Assembly: GCA_036567785.1 (NCBI GenBank)
Contig: DATCTV010000049.1
Coordinates: 1-64,000 of the forward strand
Length of the DNA stretch: 64,000 nucleotides
Reading direction: 5' to 3'
From: Desulfomonilia bacterium
GTDB taxonomy: Bacteria > Desulfobacterota > Desulfomonilia > UBA1062
Every line of letters starts with the position of its first letter. Position 1 is the stretch's first letter. Positions 33,857 to 54,647 of the stretch are shown piece after piece. The translations under genes and the position numbers were made by a program. The notes beneath the pieces were generated by a model, which did no database searches, had not been told where the DNA came from, and was given only the letters and a program-made list of their open reading frames with translations.

Positions 33857-35482
33857 ATGAAAAGGTTTTCAATACTATTTTTCCTGGCCGTCTTTTCAAT
33901 ATTTACAGGATGCAGTTCAACGGAAACCAGCACTGTCGTTAATGACCCGATAATCTATGCGGAAGGCTCAGCGGCTGCTGATGCTTCAACCCAGAAGGTT
34001 TATGATGGAGAATCTGTTGTTTTACCTGACGAAGATGGAATCGACGTTAGATATAATGAAGTAAGGCAGAAGGCGTCCCATAACGCATACCAGCGGGATG
34101 AAAGCATAATCGATCAGCTCATTTATCACAGGGTTCGCGCCATTGAATACGATCTTCACACAAATTACGGAGAGCCCGTATTGAAACTTCAGGCAGCCCC
34201 GGACGGCGACTGGCTCGTTTATCATCATATTGCCGATATGGAAACCAATTTCAAACTCTTTTCCCAGGCTCTTTCTCAGCTTAAAGGCTTTCACGAGATA
34301 ATGCCAGAGCATGAGGTCATAACCGTTTTCTTTGATATCGGCTTTGACGCAAAGCATACGCCTCAGGATTTTGACGACCTCATCAGTTCTTATATATCGA
34401 GGGAGTGGATATTTACGCCTGCCGACCTCTTGAACAGGTGTACCGGGGCATCAACCTTGAAAGGTTCAGTCAATGCATGCGGATGGCCATACCTCGACGA
34501 ACTTCGCGGCAAATTCATTTTCGTTCCAACATCAGGTTCATATGCAGGCGAAAACAGGAAAGATGCTCTCGAAAGGCTGTGTTTCGTAACCGGCGGGTTC
34601 GGTGATGTGAATTCAGTTTTTTTCAACATGGAGTATGAGGAGAATGATACCGATCCCGCAGAGGTTTACAATGCCGGTTATGTAAGCCGCGTGTATTATG
34701 CCGACAGCGCAGAAAAGTTCGCAGATGCAAAAGACCAGAAGGCTAATCTCATCGCCATCAACGAAATAAACAGCATAGAGTATCCATGGAGCAATACATT
34801 CAATTCATCCGGTTATCCGTTTGAGTGTATTGACGACCCTGACAGAATACCCGGGGATTATAAAGAAAAGGCTGACATTATCGGCATCGTATCTGATTCC
34901 GGGGGCCTGGGAATCGCTTTTAAGGACTCTTTCACATTCTTGTATGAAAATGCCGCAAACGAGGATTCAACATGGTCGGGGATCATATCGGTTCCTGACA
35001 GCTTCTCGCATTCCGGCGCTAATGCCTTTATCATGGCAAGAGAAAGTCTATCACCGGGTTCCCCATACTTTGCAGTTGTCAGACCTTCATCTGTGCTCCC
35101 CCTGTCTGTCCTTATCCGTACCAGGGAAAACTGTTTGCCGAAACTTATTCCGGGATTGAAAGTGACTCCATCAGGCATTCCCTGGCATGATGCCCCGTTT
35201 GTACGCCTCAATATATCAAACGGATGCAAAACCATTTCCGCATCAGGTTCTTTTGACGGCAGGACATGGGTTGAGATCGCATCATATACATTCAGCATGC
35301 CTTTAAACATGCACGGCATAGGCACATCATCGGATTTGCCGGGCGGGTTCAAGTCGCTTTTTGCCGGTATTACAAAGGCCACATCATCGGATGTTAAAAA
35401 ATACACCTCATCGGATCTCATTACTGGTGAAATCGGAAAAGTGAATAATTCGGCAGTATTTGATGGCGTTTTCCCTGAATAG
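33857..35482 (+). CDS. Lipoprotein with PI-PLC-like phosphodiesterase domain
   Basis: 541 residues, lipobox F-T-G-C (Cys19). Residues about 60-330 resemble the Ca2+-dependent phosphoinositide phospholipase C-like family: R-Q-K-A-S-H-N-A-Y (first catalytic His) followed by R-A-I-E-Y-D-L-H-T-N (metal-binding acidic residue) and V-Y-H-H. The C-terminal part (about 370-500) looks like a beta-sandwich of the kind that follows many exported enzymes (DUF1349/laminin-G-like), by pattern only. A surface or periplasmic phospholipid-head-group phosphodiesterase is inferred. The 3' end is 9 bases from the convergent third hybrid kinase. Confidence 0.75.
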   Translation: MKRFSILFFLAVFSIFTGCSSTETSTVVNDPIIYAEGSAAADASTQKVYDGESVVLPDEDGIDVRYNEVRQKASHNAYQRDESIIDQLIYHRVRAIEYDLHTNYGEPVLKLQAAPDGDWLVYHHIADMETNFKLFSQALSQLKGFHEIMPEHEVITVFFDIGFDAKHTPQDFDDLISSYISREWIFTPADLLNRCTGASTLKGSVNACGWPYLDELRGKFIFVPTSGSYAGENRKDALERLCFVTGGFGDVNSVFFNMEYEENDTDPAEVYNAGYVSRVYYADSAEKFADAKDQKANLIAINEINSIEYPWSNTFNSSGYPFECIDDPDRIPGDYKEKADIIGIVSDSGGLGIAFKDSFTFLYENAANEDSTWSGIISVPDSFSHSGANAFIMARESLSPGSPYFAVVRPSSVLPLSVLIRTRENCLPKLIPGLKVTPSGIPWHDAPFVRLNISNGCKTISASGSFDGRTWVEIASYTFSMPLNMHGIGTSSDLPGGFKSLFAGITKATSSDVKKYTSSDLITGEIGKVNNSAVFDGVFPE

Positions 35483-38487: not shown

Positions 38488-39396
38488 CTATATTGTTTCA
38501 ATTCCGAGGCTGGTAAATATTTCATGGTATGATTGTATATTTTCGGGTTTAATGAATTTTTTCATTTCTTCCGGAACATGTCTGTTCTGTCCTGAAAACT
38601 TGGCAAGTTTTTCAGGCCATAACGGATTATATGCAAGCAGCCTTACTTTACGGACTTTGCATGAGACGAGGAATCTGGCAATTGCATTGAGGTTTGAATA
38701 CGTATCTGTAATACCTGGGACCAGAGGCACCCTAGGAAGAATCTGTACCTGATTCATGAAACAAAGGGTTCTGAAGTTCTCGATTATTTTCTCATTTGCT
38801 GTGCCGCAGTATTTTCTGTGTTCGGTGCTATCGATTAGTTTTATATCAAAATATATCATATCCAGCCAGGGAATCATTTTTTCAAGAAACCGGTCAATTT
38901 CGAACAGACCGCAGGTTTCAAGCAATGTATCTATTCCAAGTCTTTTACATTCCTTGAGGAGCTCTGAACTGAAATCCATAAACATGGTCGGTTCGCCGCC
39001 AGATAAAGTCACGCCTCCGCCGGAGGTTTCAAAGAATGGCTTGTCCTTCATGACTTCGGATAAGACCCTCTCAATGCTCATCTCCCTGCCCACTATATCT
39101 AACGCCCCTGTCGGGCATACGCTGATGCATGTATGACATTCGGAACACCTGGACCGGTCAATTCTCAGATTGCCGCAATCTCCGTTTATTGCATGGTTGC
39201 TGCATGTGTTTACACATGTCAGGCAGCCTATGCATTCTTTTGAGTCATATGAATGTTCTGGTCCGGGTCTCATCCCCTCAGGGTTGTGGCACCATACGCA
39301 TGACAGGGGACAGCCTTTCATGAAAATGACGGTCCTTATACCCGGACCGTCATCAAGGGAATTCCCCTTCATCTCGAATATAAGCGGTTTTTTCAT
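38488..39396 (-). CDS. Glycyl-radical enzyme activase (radical SAM)
   Basis: 302 residues. The radical-SAM motif is C-x3-C-x2-C variant in M-K-G-C-P-L-S-C-V-W-C-H-N; an inserted ferredoxin-like region has two more Cys sets (C-I-G-C-L-T-C-V-N-T-C and C-S-E-C-H-T-C-I-S-V-C-P), typical of activases of the glycerol dehydratase/HPAD group. G-G-E-P-T (SAM binding) follows. It abstracts H from the glycine of its partner, the GRE upstream, whose stop it overlaps by 4 bases. Confidence 0.95.
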   Translation of the reverse strand: MKKPLIFEMKGNSLDDGPGIRTVIFMKGCPLSCVWCHNPEGMRPGPEHSYDSKECIGCLTCVNTCSNHAINGDCGNLRIDRSRCSECHTCISVCPTGALDIVGREMSIERVLSEVMKDKPFFETSGGGVTLSGGEPTMFMDFSSELLKECKRLGIDTLLETCGLFEIDRFLEKMIPWLDMIYFDIKLIDSTEHRKYCGTANEKIIENFRTLCFMNQVQILPRVPLVPGITDTYSNLNAIARFLVSCKVRKVRLLAYNPLWPEKLAKFSGQNRHVPEEMKKFIKPENIQSYHEIFTSLGIETI

Positions 39397-49072: not shown

Positions 49073-50389
49073 ATGGAATTTTCAGTTTCCGGCTCACAAG
49101 AAAAAGATGATCATACCGGACTAACAAGAAACGCCTTTTTCAAGGCAACAGGGTTGGCCGTTCTCGGTATTCTTTCAGGATGCAGCGGAAGATCAACAGA
49201 CACCTATCCGGCGTCTGAAAATTATCACACGTCGGCATTTTCAAAATCAGAAGGAACCGAAGAAACAGTGTTGGATCTTTCTTCAAATATCAATCCATGG
49301 GGACCCGCACCTGTTGCTCTTTCAGCCATGAAAGAGCAACTATATCGCAATGTGAGCCTTTCTGGCATCAACCGTTACCCTGATTTCATGAGCCTGAATA
49401 TCAGAGCCAGCGCTGCAAAACTCAACCGTGTATCACCGTTAAATATCGTTCCTATTTGCGGCATCTCTGAAGCGGTCAATATACTTTCTGATGCATATCT
49501 TGATGAAGGGGACGAGGTTATCACAACAGACCCTGCATTTTTTCTCATGGAACAGAAAGCCCTTTTGCAGAAGGCTTCTGTTGTAAAAGTGCCATTGATG
49601 AAAGACCACAGAACCGACCTCGATGCAATCATTAAAAGAATATCAAAAAAAACTAAGCTCATATATCTGATGAATCCACATAATCCCTGCGGGACGATCA
49701 TCAAAGACAATGAACTTGAAAATTTCATGACAAAGCTTGCGGCAGTAAACCTTTTGAGAAAAACAAAGGTTATTGCAGTTCTCGATCAGGCATATGGCGA
49801 TTACGTCGTCGACCCTGATTATGGCAAAACACTTACCGGTTATATTTCTTTTAATCCAATGGTCGTACTTCGTACCGCATCCTTCGCCTATGGCATGGCG
49901 GGCTTGAGATGCGGCTATGCCATTGCAAGAAGAGACATCGCAGCAGAAATGGACGGGAGCCTGCTGTATTATATAAATTCTGCGCTTAACAGCGATGCCA
50001 TCTCAAGAATCACACCGGGCCACAAGGGATGGAAACACCCCGAGGGTAACATAAACCGGCTTGCGGAATCGGGCATGATAGCAGCACTTGATCACGGACA
50101 GGACCATATAAGAAAGGTCAGAACGAAAAACAGGGAGAGCCTCGAATGGCTTTACAATGAGCTTGAGTTATCAGGCATAGATTTCATTCCATCTCAGAGC
50201 AATTTCCTCTTGATCGATCTGGGAAAGAGAACAGGCGTTGAAATAAAGAAAAAGCTGGGCACGATGGACATCTCGGTGCGCTCTGGCGATGAGTTTCATG
50301 CCGGATACTCAAACTTCATCAGGGTCTCAATCGGAACCAAAGATCAGATGGCTGTCTTTATTCAGGCCCTGAGAGAGGTGCTGCAGTGA
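49073..50389 (+). CDS. Exported aminotransferase-fold lipoprotein lacking the PLP lysine
   Basis: 438 residues of fold-type I aminotransferase, closest to HisC/threonine-phosphate decarboxylase. N-terminal Tat-like lipoprotein signal T-R-N-A-F-F-K ... L-S-G-C (Cys37; only one of the twin Args). Most PLP site residues are kept: M-N-P-H-N-P-C-G, L-D-Q-A-Y-G-D-Y, G-L-R-C-G-Y. But the Schiff-base lysine position in R-T-A-S-F-A-Y-G-M-A-G-L-R is Phe271 (family: S-K). Ordinary transamination should not be possible; a binding or altered role is likely. ATG 49073 follows GGAGGTG (TTG 49070 is an alternative). Overlaps the next gene by 4 bases. Confidence 0.85.
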   Translation: MEFSVSGSQEKDDHTGLTRNAFFKATGLAVLGILSGCSGRSTDTYPASENYHTSAFSKSEGTEETVLDLSSNINPWGPAPVALSAMKEQLYRNVSLSGINRYPDFMSLNIRASAAKLNRVSPLNIVPICGISEAVNILSDAYLDEGDEVITTDPAFFLMEQKALLQKASVVKVPLMKDHRTDLDAIIKRISKKTKLIYLMNPHNPCGTIIKDNELENFMTKLAAVNLLRKTKVIAVLDQAYGDYVVDPDYGKTLTGYISFNPMVVLRTASFAYGMAGLRCGYAIARRDIAAEMDGSLLYYINSALNSDAISRITPGHKGWKHPEGNINRLAESGMIAALDHGQDHIRKVRTKNRESLEWLYNELELSGIDFIPSQSNFLLIDLGKRTGVEIKKKLGTMDISVRSGDEFHAGYSNFIRVSIGTKDQMAVFIQALREVLQ

Positions 50390-51741
50390 AACCCTCTCTG
50401 CTCTCAATTGATATTACAAGGAGGGATTTTTTCAGGTACGGTGTGACAGCCGCCTCTCTGGTTGCAGCCGGATTTGCAGGCAGAGGCAGGGCCAATGCCT
50501 TTCCGCCTGACTGCATTTCGGATAATTTCACACGCATGTGTTATCACGAAAATCCTGTGGGGCCGCACCCTGCGGTTTATGAAAGCCTTGCAGGACTTTT
50601 ATCTTCAGACAGTCCGAGCCGCTATCCTGATGACATTGAGATGGAAGAACTCAAGAACGCCGTCCTGAAATACAACCGGGTGTACGGCATTCTCGGCACC
50701 GAGAATATCGGACTTACAGTCGGCTCGACTGAAGCTCTCATGATGTGTGCCTATTCACTTCTCAACGAAAACACCGCAGTTCTCACCGAATGGCCGACAT
50801 ACGGCATATTCTTCACCCGTGTTGAACAGACTGGCTCCAGGATAATCAAAGTCCCGCTCCTTAAGCAACCGGACGGAAGCTATCTTCCTGATCTTGAAAC
50901 CATGAAGAAAAAACTTGATGAAGACCCTTCTATAAGGATTGTTCATTTCAATCTGATAAACAACCCCATGGGGTCATACATGAAAAAGCCTGTATTTGAT
51001 GCCTTTGTCATGCATGTAAACGATAACTTCCCCGACGTGGTCATAATAGCAGATGATTCAGACCCCGAGTTCAGGGAGCGCATCACGGATGATGAGTTTC
51101 CAAAACCTCTTGAACACGTCATTGCAGGAAGAAACGTCATTCATGTACAGACCTTTTCGCACATTTTCGGAATAACAGGTCTGAGGCTTGGCTATTATAT
51201 CGCGCCGGCACGTATTGCGGAAAGGCTCGAGACCAAACGTATATACAGGGGTGTAAACATATCTGCAGTTACCGGCGGAATGGCCAGCATGCAAAATGCA
51301 GGAGAGCAGATAGAAAGATCGTATGTTAACAACCATGAAGGCAGGCTCTGGCTTTATTCACAGTTTGAGCGGATGGGAATACCATATCTAAGGTCCCACG
51401 GTTCATACATAATGCTTGATACAGGCATTCAAAGCTCAATCGTTTACATCCTCATGGCGGCCCAGGGTGTGATGATACGCCAAGGCAGCGAATGGGGACT
51501 TGATACATGGATTCGCGTAAACCCCGGGATGCATCCGGTTGAAAACGAAATTTTCATAAAGGCCCTTAAAAACATACGCATTGATTCAAAATCCTCGCTG
51601 TCACTGAAGGATGTCCTCAACACAGCCGAGGGAAAACAGGGGCTGAAAAACGGTTATGAAAACGGAATGCTTCCTGATATGATATCCCTCGATGAAAATG
51701 AAAGGATGACGGTTTTAAAAAATCTCCTCTCCGGGGGGTAA
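50386..51741 (+). CDS. Tat-exported aminotransferase homologue with Lys-to-His at the PLP site
   Basis: 451 residues. Twin-arginine signal (I-T-R-R-D-F-F-R-Y-G, R12-R13) with a cleavage site near A-N-A. HisC-like fold: V-G-S-T-E-A-L, N-N-P-M-G, I-A-D-D-S-D, and F-S-H-I-F-G-I-T-G-L-R-L-G-Y, in which the Schiff-base lysine is His259. The sugar dehydratase ColD is a known fold-type I enzyme using His at this place, so catalysis with PMP is conceivable. The Asp-x-x-Tyr tyrosine is also replaced. GTG start overlaps the preceding stop (GTGA). Tat export fits a protein folded around its cofactor in the cytoplasm. Confidence 0.85.
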   Translation: MKPSLLSIDITRRDFFRYGVTAASLVAAGFAGRGRANAFPPDCISDNFTRMCYHENPVGPHPAVYESLAGLLSSDSPSRYPDDIEMEELKNAVLKYNRVYGILGTENIGLTVGSTEALMMCAYSLLNENTAVLTEWPTYGIFFTRVEQTGSRIIKVPLLKQPDGSYLPDLETMKKKLDEDPSIRIVHFNLINNPMGSYMKKPVFDAFVMHVNDNFPDVVIIADDSDPEFRERITDDEFPKPLEHVIAGRNVIHVQTFSHIFGITGLRLGYYIAPARIAERLETKRIYRGVNISAVTGGMASMQNAGEQIERSYVNNHEGRLWLYSQFERMGIPYLRSHGSYIMLDTGIQSSIVYILMAAQGVMIRQGSEWGLDTWIRVNPGMHPVENEIFIKALKNIRIDSKSSLSLKDVLNTAEGKQGLKNGYENGMLPDMISLDENERMTVLKNLLSGG

Positions 51742-51742
51742 T

Positions 51743-52321
51743 ATGATCAAACGGATCGATCATGTATCAATTGCAGTAAAAGACTTTGAAAAGGCGAGGA
51801 AGTTTTTTGAAGACATCCTCGGGGCAATACCGGGCAGCCATGCAACGGATGATTCGATGAAATACAAATGGCATATCTTTTCCGCAGGCGACCTGAGCAG
51901 ACTGGAAATCATATCACCCACGGGGCAAGGGAGTTTTCTAGACGGCTTTCTGAAAGACCGGGAGGGCGGCGTTCATCACATTACATTTCAGACATCGGAT
52001 ATTAATAAAGCGAAGGCCGCTCTCGATGCAGCAGGCATCCCCTATTTCGGAGAAAATGTATACCCCGGAGGAATATGGAAGGAACTGTTCATCCACCCCA
52101 GAGATGCATTCGGCGTGCTTGTTCAGATTGCAGAATTCGCGCCCGACGACTGGCTGGCACCTGAGCTGTGTATGTCTGGAGGCCAGAAGTTCGAAGTTTC
52201 CGAGTCACCCGACGGTTGTTCGATATGCTTTGCGCACCCGGGCGGCGGAAAAGTCAGTCTTGAATTGAGCGATGACGAAGCGCAGTTGTTGATCGACAGG
52301 CTGAAACGTGCGATAACCTAG
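51743..52321 (+). CDS. VOC-superfamily protein (glyoxalase/methylmalonyl-CoA epimerase-like)
   Basis: 192 residues. The two beta-alpha-beta-beta-beta modules are visible: R-I-D-H-V-S-I-A-V-K-D at the start and G-G-V-H-H-I-T-F-Q-T-S-D-I in the second; the metal His positions (D-H-V and V-H-H-I) look kept, as in methylmalonyl-CoA epimerase. Length beyond the core (about 135-192) is a C-terminal extension. It starts right after the His259 protein, GGGGGG as ribosome-binding site, so probably one operon of three genes. No signal peptide, unlike its partners. Confidence 0.85.
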   Translation: MIKRIDHVSIAVKDFEKARKFFEDILGAIPGSHATDDSMKYKWHIFSAGDLSRLEIISPTGQGSFLDGFLKDREGGVHHITFQTSDINKAKAALDAAGIPYFGENVYPGGIWKELFIHPRDAFGVLVQIAEFAPDDWLAPELCMSGGQKFEVSESPDGCSICFAHPGGGKVSLELSDDEAQLLIDRLKRAIT

Positions 52322-52359: not shown

Positions 52360-53517
52360 TCACCATTTCTGGAAGCAATGTTCGGCAAAGCCCAATATGT
52401 CTTTGACCTTGAGAACGGTCCCGTCGTCAAGCACGACCGTTCCGCTCATCCTGCCCCTGGGCTGTATGGTTTTCATGTAATAGAACCCGAGGTTTATAAA
52501 CTGCGAGTGGTCATAATCGCATTCCATCGTTATATCGAACCTGTTGTCATCGCTCTTGAAATGCCACGGCTGCATGATGTCGTCCGGGTTATAGTCCCAT
52601 TTGATCGGGCCCATCTTGTGGACAACACCGTCATAGACTATTGCACTGGCCTGAAAACGCGATGCGTTCTCTTCACCCCATCCGAAGTTGAAACCGAGCA
52701 CCTTGCCTTCCACCTCGCCTGACGCCACGGCCCAGCCCCACTCGAATTCTTTCGGCCATACCCCCCTGCCCCAGTCGAGAACGGCATATGAATCCTTTTC
52801 ATCAAAGACATACTTTTTGCCCTTGATGGTCACGCTTCCCGAAGCCCTCTTGGCAAAGACCTTGTCCGTATAGAAGAAGCTCAGCCCTTTCTCGTCAAAA
52901 GGCGCGGCAGTTGCCAGGGAGTCATCGGCCGGATCGTCCTGTATCTTCATCTCTCCAGTTATTTCCGGCCCGAAAATGGCGGATTTGGGGAAATCAAAGG
53001 TAAGCTTCTTGATGCCGTCCTTATATGTAAATGCGGAATATACGCCGCCCTTATCGAATACGTTGTCTTCATATGGGTTAAGCGGCGGCGTCAATGCATC
53101 GGTGTTAAAGAGGATGCGCATGTTGGAAAAAGTTTCACCGGTTTTATAGTCAACCAGCGATACTGTTATCAGAACCATCCACGTGATATCCGCCATGGTG
53201 ATTTCAAAGCTGTAATCGGAATTGTAGACATTATAGAAATCCCATTCCTTAAGCCTTTTCTGCTGGTCTTTCGTGAGGTTTTCCCTGTTGTATATCATGA
53301 GCGGATGGCGGGCCCACCCCCATGCGGCCAGTGTCCCGTCATCATTGAGCAGAGGCGTTTTTCCGGTAATTTCCCAATCATTATGCAGAACGACCTTTTC
53401 ATTCTGACCCTCTGACTGTTCCGTTGCTTGAGCGGCGGAATCGTCACCACCTGAACTGCTGCAACCGCAAATCATTAATACTGCGATCAGTATCGCCGCA
53501 TATAGCAAATTTTTCAT
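52360..53517 (-). CDS. DUF2804-like lipoprotein
   Basis: 385 residues, lipobox I-C-G-C (Cys19). The pattern (W-D-F-Y-N-V-Y-N near the middle, later L-D-W-G-R-G-V-W-P and W-G-W-A-V-A) matches DUF2804, a beta-rich family of unknown function. ATG 53517 starts the signal peptide with GAGGAGG upstream; a longer frame exists without a signal. Convergent with the VOC gene and downstream of the desulfhydrase gene on its strand. Confidence 0.75.
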   Translation of the reverse strand: MKNLLYAAILIAVLMICGCSSSGGDDSAAQATEQSEGQNEKVVLHNDWEITGKTPLLNDDGTLAAWGWARHPLMIYNRENLTKDQQKRLKEWDFYNVYNSDYSFEITMADITWMVLITVSLVDYKTGETFSNMRILFNTDALTPPLNPYEDNVFDKGGVYSAFTYKDGIKKLTFDFPKSAIFGPEITGEMKIQDDPADDSLATAAPFDEKGLSFFYTDKVFAKRASGSVTIKGKKYVFDEKDSYAVLDWGRGVWPKEFEWGWAVASGEVEGKVLGFNFGWGEENASRFQASAIVYDGVVHKMGPIKWDYNPDDIMQPWHFKSDDNRFDITMECDYDHSQFINLGFYYMKTIQPRGRMSGTVVLDDGTVLKVKDILGFAEHCFQKW

Positions 53518-53591
53518 ATCATGCCTCCTCATCTGCAAAATCAATTTATATATGCCGGGCATGCCCAACCATACCGGATTAGTATAACACA

Positions 53592-54647
53592 TTATTCATT
53601 TATAAAAAACCCGGGTAAAGGGTCGGGCAGCAAATGATAATCTACTGATGCAGCCTTTTCAGTAAGATCCGCCGAGTTATACGTATGCCAGTAAAGAATC
53701 TTCCTGCCAGCGTATTCATTTGATTCGAGCATGTCCAGAACCGCCGCAAAGGTCTTGCCTGTGTAGGTTGGTTCGAGACTTAAACCTTCGTTTTCTTTCA
53801 TCACCCCGATTGCCTTCATCCCTTCGGGTGTAGGATAGCCGTATCCTTCGCCGAAATATGAACCTATTACCTCGTACCGGCTTTGATCTATCGTAAGATT
53901 TATACCAGCAAGCTTTAACGTCTGATTCATGAGCGATGTCACTGTCTCTTTTGTGCATGCCCTGAAAGGCCCCAGATGTGATGCCGTGACCCTTACACCG
54001 ATAACCCGGCTTCTGATCCCGGCAAGCTGAACCCCCAGAGACAATCCCGCCATTGTTCCGTTTGATCCGAGAGGGCATACGATTATGTCGGGTTCAGGCA
54101 TCGCCCCTTGCTCTATCTGCGTTTTGAGTTCGAACGCCGCATTCACGAAACCGAGCGTGCCGATTGGTGAAGAACCGCCTGCAAAGAGCGAATACGCCTT
54201 TCCTTGCCTGAAATGCTGGACTACAAAAAGATGAAAAAGGGCATTCATTATACTGCGGGCATAAACCATCTCGGCATGGTATTTATAAAACATCAGCATG
54301 TTGCGCTTGACGTATTCATTAACCGGCTGCTTGAATAGAACTAACGTGCATTTAAGTCCGAGCCTTTTTGCAAATACCGCAGTGGCCAGTCCGTGATTGG
54401 TGCCGATGCCTCCCATCGTGATTATGCGGTCACAGCCATTTTTTATAACATCTGCAAGCACGAATTCAAGTTTTCTCACCTTGTTGCCGCCATACTCAGT
54501 AGAGGTTTTGTCGTCCCGTTTTATCCATAACCTTCCCTGCCCTATCTTCTCTGCATGCTGAACGGGAGTTGGAAAATCGCCGAGTGCAATCCAGGGAAAC
54601 TTTGCCTCGAGTTCGGGATATGATTCAAAAATTACGGGTTTATTCAT
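53592..54647 (-). CDS. D-cysteine desulfhydrase / ACC deaminase family PLP enzyme
   Basis: 351 residues, fold-type II PLP enzyme. Schiff-base lysine in Y-G-G-N-K-V-R-K-L-E, glycine-rich phosphate loop L-G-S-N-G-T-M-A-G-L, and Y-W-H-T-Y-N-S near the C-terminus. Members deaminate D-cysteine, 1-aminocyclopropane-1-carboxylate or related D-amino acids; ligand residues do not let me choose. It overlaps the APC permease gene by 8 bases, so uptake and breakdown of the same amino acid is likely. Confidence 0.9.
   Translation of the reverse strand: MNKPVIFESYPELEAKFPWIALGDFPTPVQHAEKIGQGRLWIKRDDKTSTEYGGNKVRKLEFVLADVIKNGCDRIITMGGIGTNHGLATAVFAKRLGLKCTLVLFKQPVNEYVKRNMLMFYKYHAEMVYARSIMNALFHLFVVQHFRQGKAYSLFAGGSSPIGTLGFVNAAFELKTQIEQGAMPEPDIIVCPLGSNGTMAGLSLGVQLAGIRSRVIGVRVTASHLGPFRACTKETVTSLMNQTLKLAGINLTIDQSRYEVIGSYFGEGYGYPTPEGMKAIGVMKENEGLSLEPTYTGKTFAAVLDMLESNEYAGRKILYWHTYNSADLTEKAASVDYHLLPDPLPGFFINE

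Follow-up and report, generated by a model that had tools for sequence, protein, structure and literature searches.

Two adjacent genes of the window (the whole 64,000-nucleotide stretch of DNA that was analyzed) encode HisC-like fold-type-I proteins of the PF00155 fold family, P1 and P2, both of which carry export-type signals and both of which have lost the Schiff-base lysine, with Phe taking its place in P1 and His in P2. The two genes stand together in two further genomes as well, the lysine is missing from every member, and the remainder of the pocket is mostly kept. This looks like a real, rare and uncharacterized pair of envelope proteins and not like a decayed gene or the product of a sequencing error, and its interest lies in a lysine loss that is conserved in both copies of a pair with export signals. 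Our main reading, to which we assign a probability of about 0.4, is that P1 and P2 are the two subunits of an exported HisC-derived protein that would hold PLP or PMP non-covalently and use His as an acid/base in a ColD-like manner.

The features of the pair, of its surroundings and of its counterparts in the two relatives (P1' and P2') are collected in Table 1. An earlier note on this DNA had described tandem HisC-like genes with a 4-base GTGA overlap, and both the coordinates and the overlap are correct; the overlap suggests that translation of P1 and P2 is coupled. The true Tat signal that had been ascribed to P2 is borne out by a clear twin-arginine sequence, ITRRDFFRYG...ANA. For P1, described as a 'Tat-like lipoprotein', the lipobox (ILSGC, after TRNAFFK) is present and the label is a fair one, but the motif preceding it contains one Arg only and Tat export of the window's P1 is uncertain. 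The C-terminal extension of P2 is shared in part with the two relatives, both of which have its motif L(N/D)TxEG.

Table 1. Positions of the gene pair, of selected codons, of neighboring genes and of the corresponding genes in two relatives (window positions unless a locus is given).
Feature	Position	Strand	Remarks
P1, exported HisC-like protein, 438 aa	49073..50389	+	Residues 33-37 are the lipobox ILSGC; Phe271 stands at the Schiff-base Lys site
P2, HisC-like protein with Tat signal, 451 aa	50386..51741	+	GTG start; Schiff-base Lys replaced by His259
GTGA overlap, 4 bases	50386..50389	+	P2 start inside P1 stop
Phe271 codon (TTC) of P1	49883..49885	+	Old Schiff-base lysine site; alignment column 377
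Lys321 codon of P1	50033..50035	+	In P1-only insertion (WK); sole relocated-lysine candidate
His259 codon (CAC) of P2	51160..51162	+	Old Schiff-base lysine site
C-terminal extension of P2, about 40 residues	51583-51738	+	Residues about 400-451; not in HisC
Glyoxalase/VOC-fold protein	51743..52321	+	Starts one base after P2; no evident export signal
DUF2804 protein	52360-53592		Lipobox-like signal; 304 bits
PALP-family protein	53592-54647		Below all cut-offs
Putative lipoprotein	33857-35482		Match to PF16670
Radical-SAM activase	38488-39396		Of the glycyl radical enzyme
Glycyl radical enzyme, 997 aa	39393-42386		PFL-like
P2' of G052	L031: 8891-10267	-	
Transposase of G052	L031: 10248-10895	-	Y1/RAYT type
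P1' of G052	L031: 10896-12260	-	
Transposase of G089	L032: 2835-3467	-	Y1/RAYT type
Pair of G089	Loci L032/L037		

The VOC gene that follows P2 probably belongs to the same transcript. It was not found beside the pair in the relatives, for the neighborhoods that were compared, and is therefore unlikely to belong to the core unit. Beyond it lie the gene of the DUF2804 protein and that of the PALP-family protein, the latter closest to the D-cysteate sulfo-lyase CuyA and to D-cysteine desulfhydrase and adjoined by an amino-acid-permease-like gene. Elsewhere the window encodes a putative lipoprotein with a match to the family of Ca2+-dependent phosphoinositide phospholipases C and, at another position, a glycyl radical enzyme with about 200 residues ahead of its PFL domain, which together with its activase adjoins two FadL-type genes, a large lipoprotein and a TetR regulator.

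A Pfam scan (E<=0.001) matches both proteins to PF00155 across the whole domain, P1 with 130.7 bits and P2 with 80 bits against a cut-off of 19.7 bits; P1 also matches PF00266, and nothing else is found. The best NCBIfam match of both is hisC (TIGR01141), with scores of 214.2 (P1) and 135 bits (P2) that fall below the curated cut-off of 276.55 bits, and both also match NF051461 (PtaA) below its cut-off. AlphaFold models have the HisC fold, with mean pLDDT values of 81.9 for P2 and 77.2 for P1; they are unreliable in the signal regions of both proteins and at residues 95-103 and 305-325 of P1. Foldseek searches against the PDB return HisC structures as the best matches, with TM-scores by target of about 0.82-0.90. 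HisC (TIGR01141, fold type I, PF00155) is the closest known system by sequence and structure search alike, sharing with the pair its fold, its domain order and most pocket residues (Asn, Asp, Ser, Arg, the partner Tyr and the C-terminal Arg), whereas the pair is without the Schiff-base Lys, exported, arranged in tandem and below the HisC cut-off, with a true HisC encoded elsewhere in the genome. That either protein is the HisC of histidine biosynthesis is ruled out by these scores and by a separate true hisC above the cut-off in each of the four genomes checked (341.5 bits in the window's genome), and the pair is therefore dispensable for that step of histidine synthesis.

The replacements of the Schiff-base lysine by Phe271 and His259 had been proposed before and are right: HMMER alignments to solved HisC chains place both residues on that lysine, and neither protein has the lysine of the SK motif. 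In a 37-sequence alignment with homologues from genomes of the phylum, the Schiff-base column holds Lys in all 31 other homologues and in none of the six pair proteins, five of which have His and one, the window's P1, Phe. Retention of Lys by homologues, which the earlier note had considered as a sign of sequencing error or recent decay, is seen nowhere within the P1/P2 clade. The rest of the pocket had been described as largely kept in P1; it is largely kept in P2 too, though altered. All six proteins retain (P1/P2 numbering) Tyr102/80, Gly130/113, Glu133/116, Asp182/169, Asn204/193 with Pro205/194, Asp238/223, Ser270/258, Arg279/267 and Arg417/377, and the invariant columns of a 12-sequence alignment include the usual HisC cofactor positions, in P2 numbering Y80, G113, D169, N193, D223, S258, R267 and R377, the Lys not being among them. 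The kept positions include what we take to be the HisC contacts to the pyridine nitrogen, 3' oxygen and phosphate of the cofactor and, presumably, the tyrosine supplied by the partner subunit and the arginine for the substrate.

Other parts of the pocket have changed. The DEAY motif has become DDSDPEF in P2, with Asp226 in the place of the Tyr that faces the cofactor, and the three P2 proteins agree throughout ADDSDPEF (the cluster comprising residues 223-229). Invariant in P2 as well are H54, H187 and H259, at positions where HisC nearly always has Asn, Phe and Lys; P1 is without these histidines. The other changes of P1 are NIN, DQAY and TAS, and an insertion found only in P1, with a Trp-Lys (Lys321) kept in three of three P1 proteins, lies directly ahead of the segment that corresponds to the HisC FN motif. 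With regard to a lysine reaching the site from another segment, a possibility that the earlier note had raised, alignment offers no candidate in P2 and a single one, Lys321, in P1.

A point missed at that earlier stage is that the pair is conserved in other genomes. It is present in two metagenome-assembled genomes from Lake Pavin sediment (G052 and G089; contigs JAPLJI010000155 and JAPLJL010000188) that fall within a different class of the phylum, one sampled by only three genomes. Searches with P2, with P1 and with the DNA pattern for FSHxxxxxGxRxGY find the pair in 3 of 395 genomes of the phylum, the window's included, the two genes occurring together in all three and hence in two classes; the remaining pattern matches among the 395 bear no resemblance to the motif. 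A scan of the contigs of the whole collection with two narrow peptide patterns, which distant members may escape, returned only the two Lake Pavin genomes, and viral contigs and plasmids hold more distant homologues, of which those examined have Lys. In the two relatives the site is His in P1' (within FSHAYGLAG) and P2' (within FSHTFALTG or FSHAFALTG) alike; P1' is in each case a twin-arginine lipoprotein (SRRELIR with LS(S/A)C), and P2' has the twin-arginine signal SRRSFLK. A survey of homologues thus finds the substitution and the export signals again in the two Lake Pavin genomes.

Between P1' and P2' both relatives have a gene for a Y1/RAYT-type transposase, the start of which abuts the P1' stop and the end of which overlaps the P2' start, and tight coupling is therefore not strictly kept. 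The dS between the two Lake Pavin genomes is 0.10 for the transposase and 0.86 for P2', as if the transposase had recently been homogenized or replaced. Besides the pair, the window and the 19-kb neighborhood in G052 (L031) share only generic regulators and sigma factors; with no conserved neighbors, operon context was dropped as a clue to the substrate. TatC is present in the window's genome (G000) and in G052, and no match to it was found in G089, an 82% complete assembly that does have the pair. G124, a genome of the same genus as those from Lake Pavin (91% complete), has neither the pair nor a TatC match, which is consistent with Tat dependence, as a single case.

In trees, P1 and P2 group together to the exclusion of the diverse Lys-type relatives, with support of 99/97, and this clade stays at 98/96 when the alignment is stripped of its Lys column and signal region. 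The losses of Lys therefore need not be independent, and independent losses in P1 and in P2 are disfavored. In the tree without the Lys column the branching of P1 versus P2 within the clade is less secure (91/72), and the window's P1 sits on a long branch. Judging from the sequences, the simplest history would be a single Lys-to-His change in an ancestor, then a tandem duplication and then a His-to-Phe change in the window's P1, which would make Phe a later change peculiar to the window's genome. Comparison of the two Lake Pavin relatives gives a dN/dS of 0.10 in P2 and of 0.36 in P1, so that both proteins are constrained between these genomes. Selection for a role other than transamination, which the earlier note had inferred, is supported by the low dN/dS, by the recurrence of the pair and of the Lys loss in another class and by the separate hisC.

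Several known systems resemble the pair in part. PtaA and PvdN are PLP proteins of pyoverdine maturation that are exported by Tat in folded form and with their cofactor (PMC6206403). They are, as the pair would be, Tat-exported fold-I B6 proteins, PtaA being HisC-like, and the twin-arginine signal of this type is shared by P2 (TRRDFFR) and by P1' and P2' of the relatives, not by the window's P1 (TRNAFFK). PvdN, however, needs the Lys of its active site and the description of PtaA is that of an ordinary PLP transaminase, whereas the pair has no Lys, and neither PvdN nor PtaA has a tandem copy or a lipoprotein partner. Because PvdN with the active-site lysine mutated is stuck in the membrane (PMC6206403), a Tat cargo without Lys needs another hold on the cofactor or else cofactor-free folding. 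The sugar 3-dehydratases ColD, E1 and SpnQ have undergone a Lys-to-His replacement and work with PMP, the His being able to act as an acid/base (PMC8987622). Here the likeness consists in fold type I and in His for the catalytic Lys, in P2 of three of three genomes and in P1 of two of three, but these enzymes are cytoplasmic, act on nucleotide sugars, removing a hydroxyl from a keto-sugar, and are related to another aminotransferase group, and the Pfam scan (E<=0.001) gives no DegT/DnrJ/EryC1-type match for P1 or P2. The pair is not a member of the ColD family and is perhaps ColD-like in its working. Eukaryotic serine palmitoyltransferase is likewise made of two homologous fold-I subunits, a heterodimer in which SPT1 is without the PLP-binding motif (PMC6148460); its other subunit, SPT2, does have the Lys, unlike both P1 and P2, and the pair is bacterial and exported. 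A plasmid protein of Novosphingobium humi (L056) has, as in the pair, a HisC-like domain behind a twin-arginine-like signal, but it retains Lys (TFSKVYGLAG) and is placed elsewhere in the tree.

In our main reading P1 and P2 would take up PMP (or PLP) non-covalently while still in the cytoplasm and then fold. The Tat system would export the folded proteins, and P1 would be anchored as a lipoprotein. The histidine of P2, and that of P1 in the relatives, would act as acid/base on C4' of the cofactor, in ketimine chemistry of the ColD kind with a substrate in the envelope, while the window's P1 with its Phe would serve as a structural or anchoring partner of P2, as SPT1 does for SPT2. Cofactor binding, catalysis, complex formation and the substrate are what we infer for the pair, a P1/P2 heterodimer being suggested by the conserved pairing and the overlap. 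The occurrence of His at the site in five of the six proteins, across two classes, speaks for this reading. Counting against it, Phe271 rules out an acid/base role at this site in the window's P1, Asp226 of P2 replaces the DEAY Tyr that is normally in contact with the cofactor, the Lys mutant of PvdN is stuck in the membrane, the window's P1 is without the twin arginine, and no conserved neighbors name a substrate.

The main rival is a pseudoenzyme, that is, an envelope protein with a binding or scaffold role (for PLP/PMP, an amino acid, a phosphorylated ligand or a peptide) in which the fold and the anion-binding residues are kept and no chemistry takes place. It would agree with the window's P1, which has Phe instead of Lys or His, further changes at NIN, DQAY and TAS and a long branch, with the altered Tyr and Asn positions of P2, and with export in the absence of a known envelope pathway. 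Yet the residue that recurs in five of six proteins is the same one, His, and not a random one, and P2 is strongly constrained, its three unique histidines included; we consider this rival somewhat unlikely, though to be taken seriously. An asymmetric pair in the manner of SPT, with P2 as the enzyme and P1 as a degenerate activating or anchoring subunit, strikes us as improbable. The Phe and the degraded signal of the window's P1 beside a P2 that still has His, the lipoprotein character of P1 and the fact that the two genes stay together would be in keeping with it, and SPT1/SPT2 provides a precedent (PMC6148460), but His is found in both subunits of the relatives, so that the asymmetry is not general, and Lys is found in neither subunit, unlike in SPT.

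The invariance in P2 of H54, H187 and H259, where nearly all HisC have Asn, Phe and Lys, and that of ADDSDPEF in all three P2 proteins could also point to a rebuilt metal or hydrolytic site, formed by histidines 54, 187 and 259 with DDSDPEF (223-229) and using no B6 cofactor. We think this very improbable, as residues of the phosphate and pyridine sites (S258, R267, N193, D223 and Y80) remain and P1 does not share the histidines. Even less credence is given to a relocated lysine, whereby Lys321 of P1 would reach the pocket as a substitute for the Schiff-base residue and P1 would still be a covalent PLP enzyme: WK is kept in three P1 proteins and the insertion directly precedes the segment aligned with the FN motif, but the Lys321 loop is modeled with pLDDT <50, P2 is without such a lysine, and we know of no fold-I enzyme in which the lysine is supplied from this position. 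Lastly, the long branch of the window's P1 and the Phe at its site might be read as decay, sequencing error or a recent pseudogene. This is scarcely tenable, given that three separate assemblies agree on the Lys loss, the frames are open, dN/dS between the relatives is well below 1 and the pairing is kept across classes; sequencing error and recent decay are rejected at the level of the family on the basis of the three assemblies, the dN/dS and the conserved pairing, while decay limited to the window's P1 could still hold.

Returning to the exported, His-dependent B6 protein that we prefer, its fullest form would be a new kind of B6 protein, namely a Tat-exported two-subunit HisC derivative in which the Lys-to-His change preceded the divergence of the subunits and which would carry out ketimine chemistry in the envelope with non-covalent PMP; for this complete set of properties together we are doubtful and regard it as rather unlikely. 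Nothing directly on point concerning a HisC without Lys or exported PLP pseudoenzymes was found in the literature searched. Functional loss of the lysine that defines B6 enzymes is known chiefly from a few cytoplasmic sugar dehydratases, and the present case lies in the HisC branch and concerns two duplicated proteins that carry export signals. How a Lys-less relative of PvdN-like exported enzymes would fold and hold its cofactor for Tat export is a clean and testable question, and if His/PMP chemistry does take place in the envelope, the pair would represent a second, independent origin of that mechanism.
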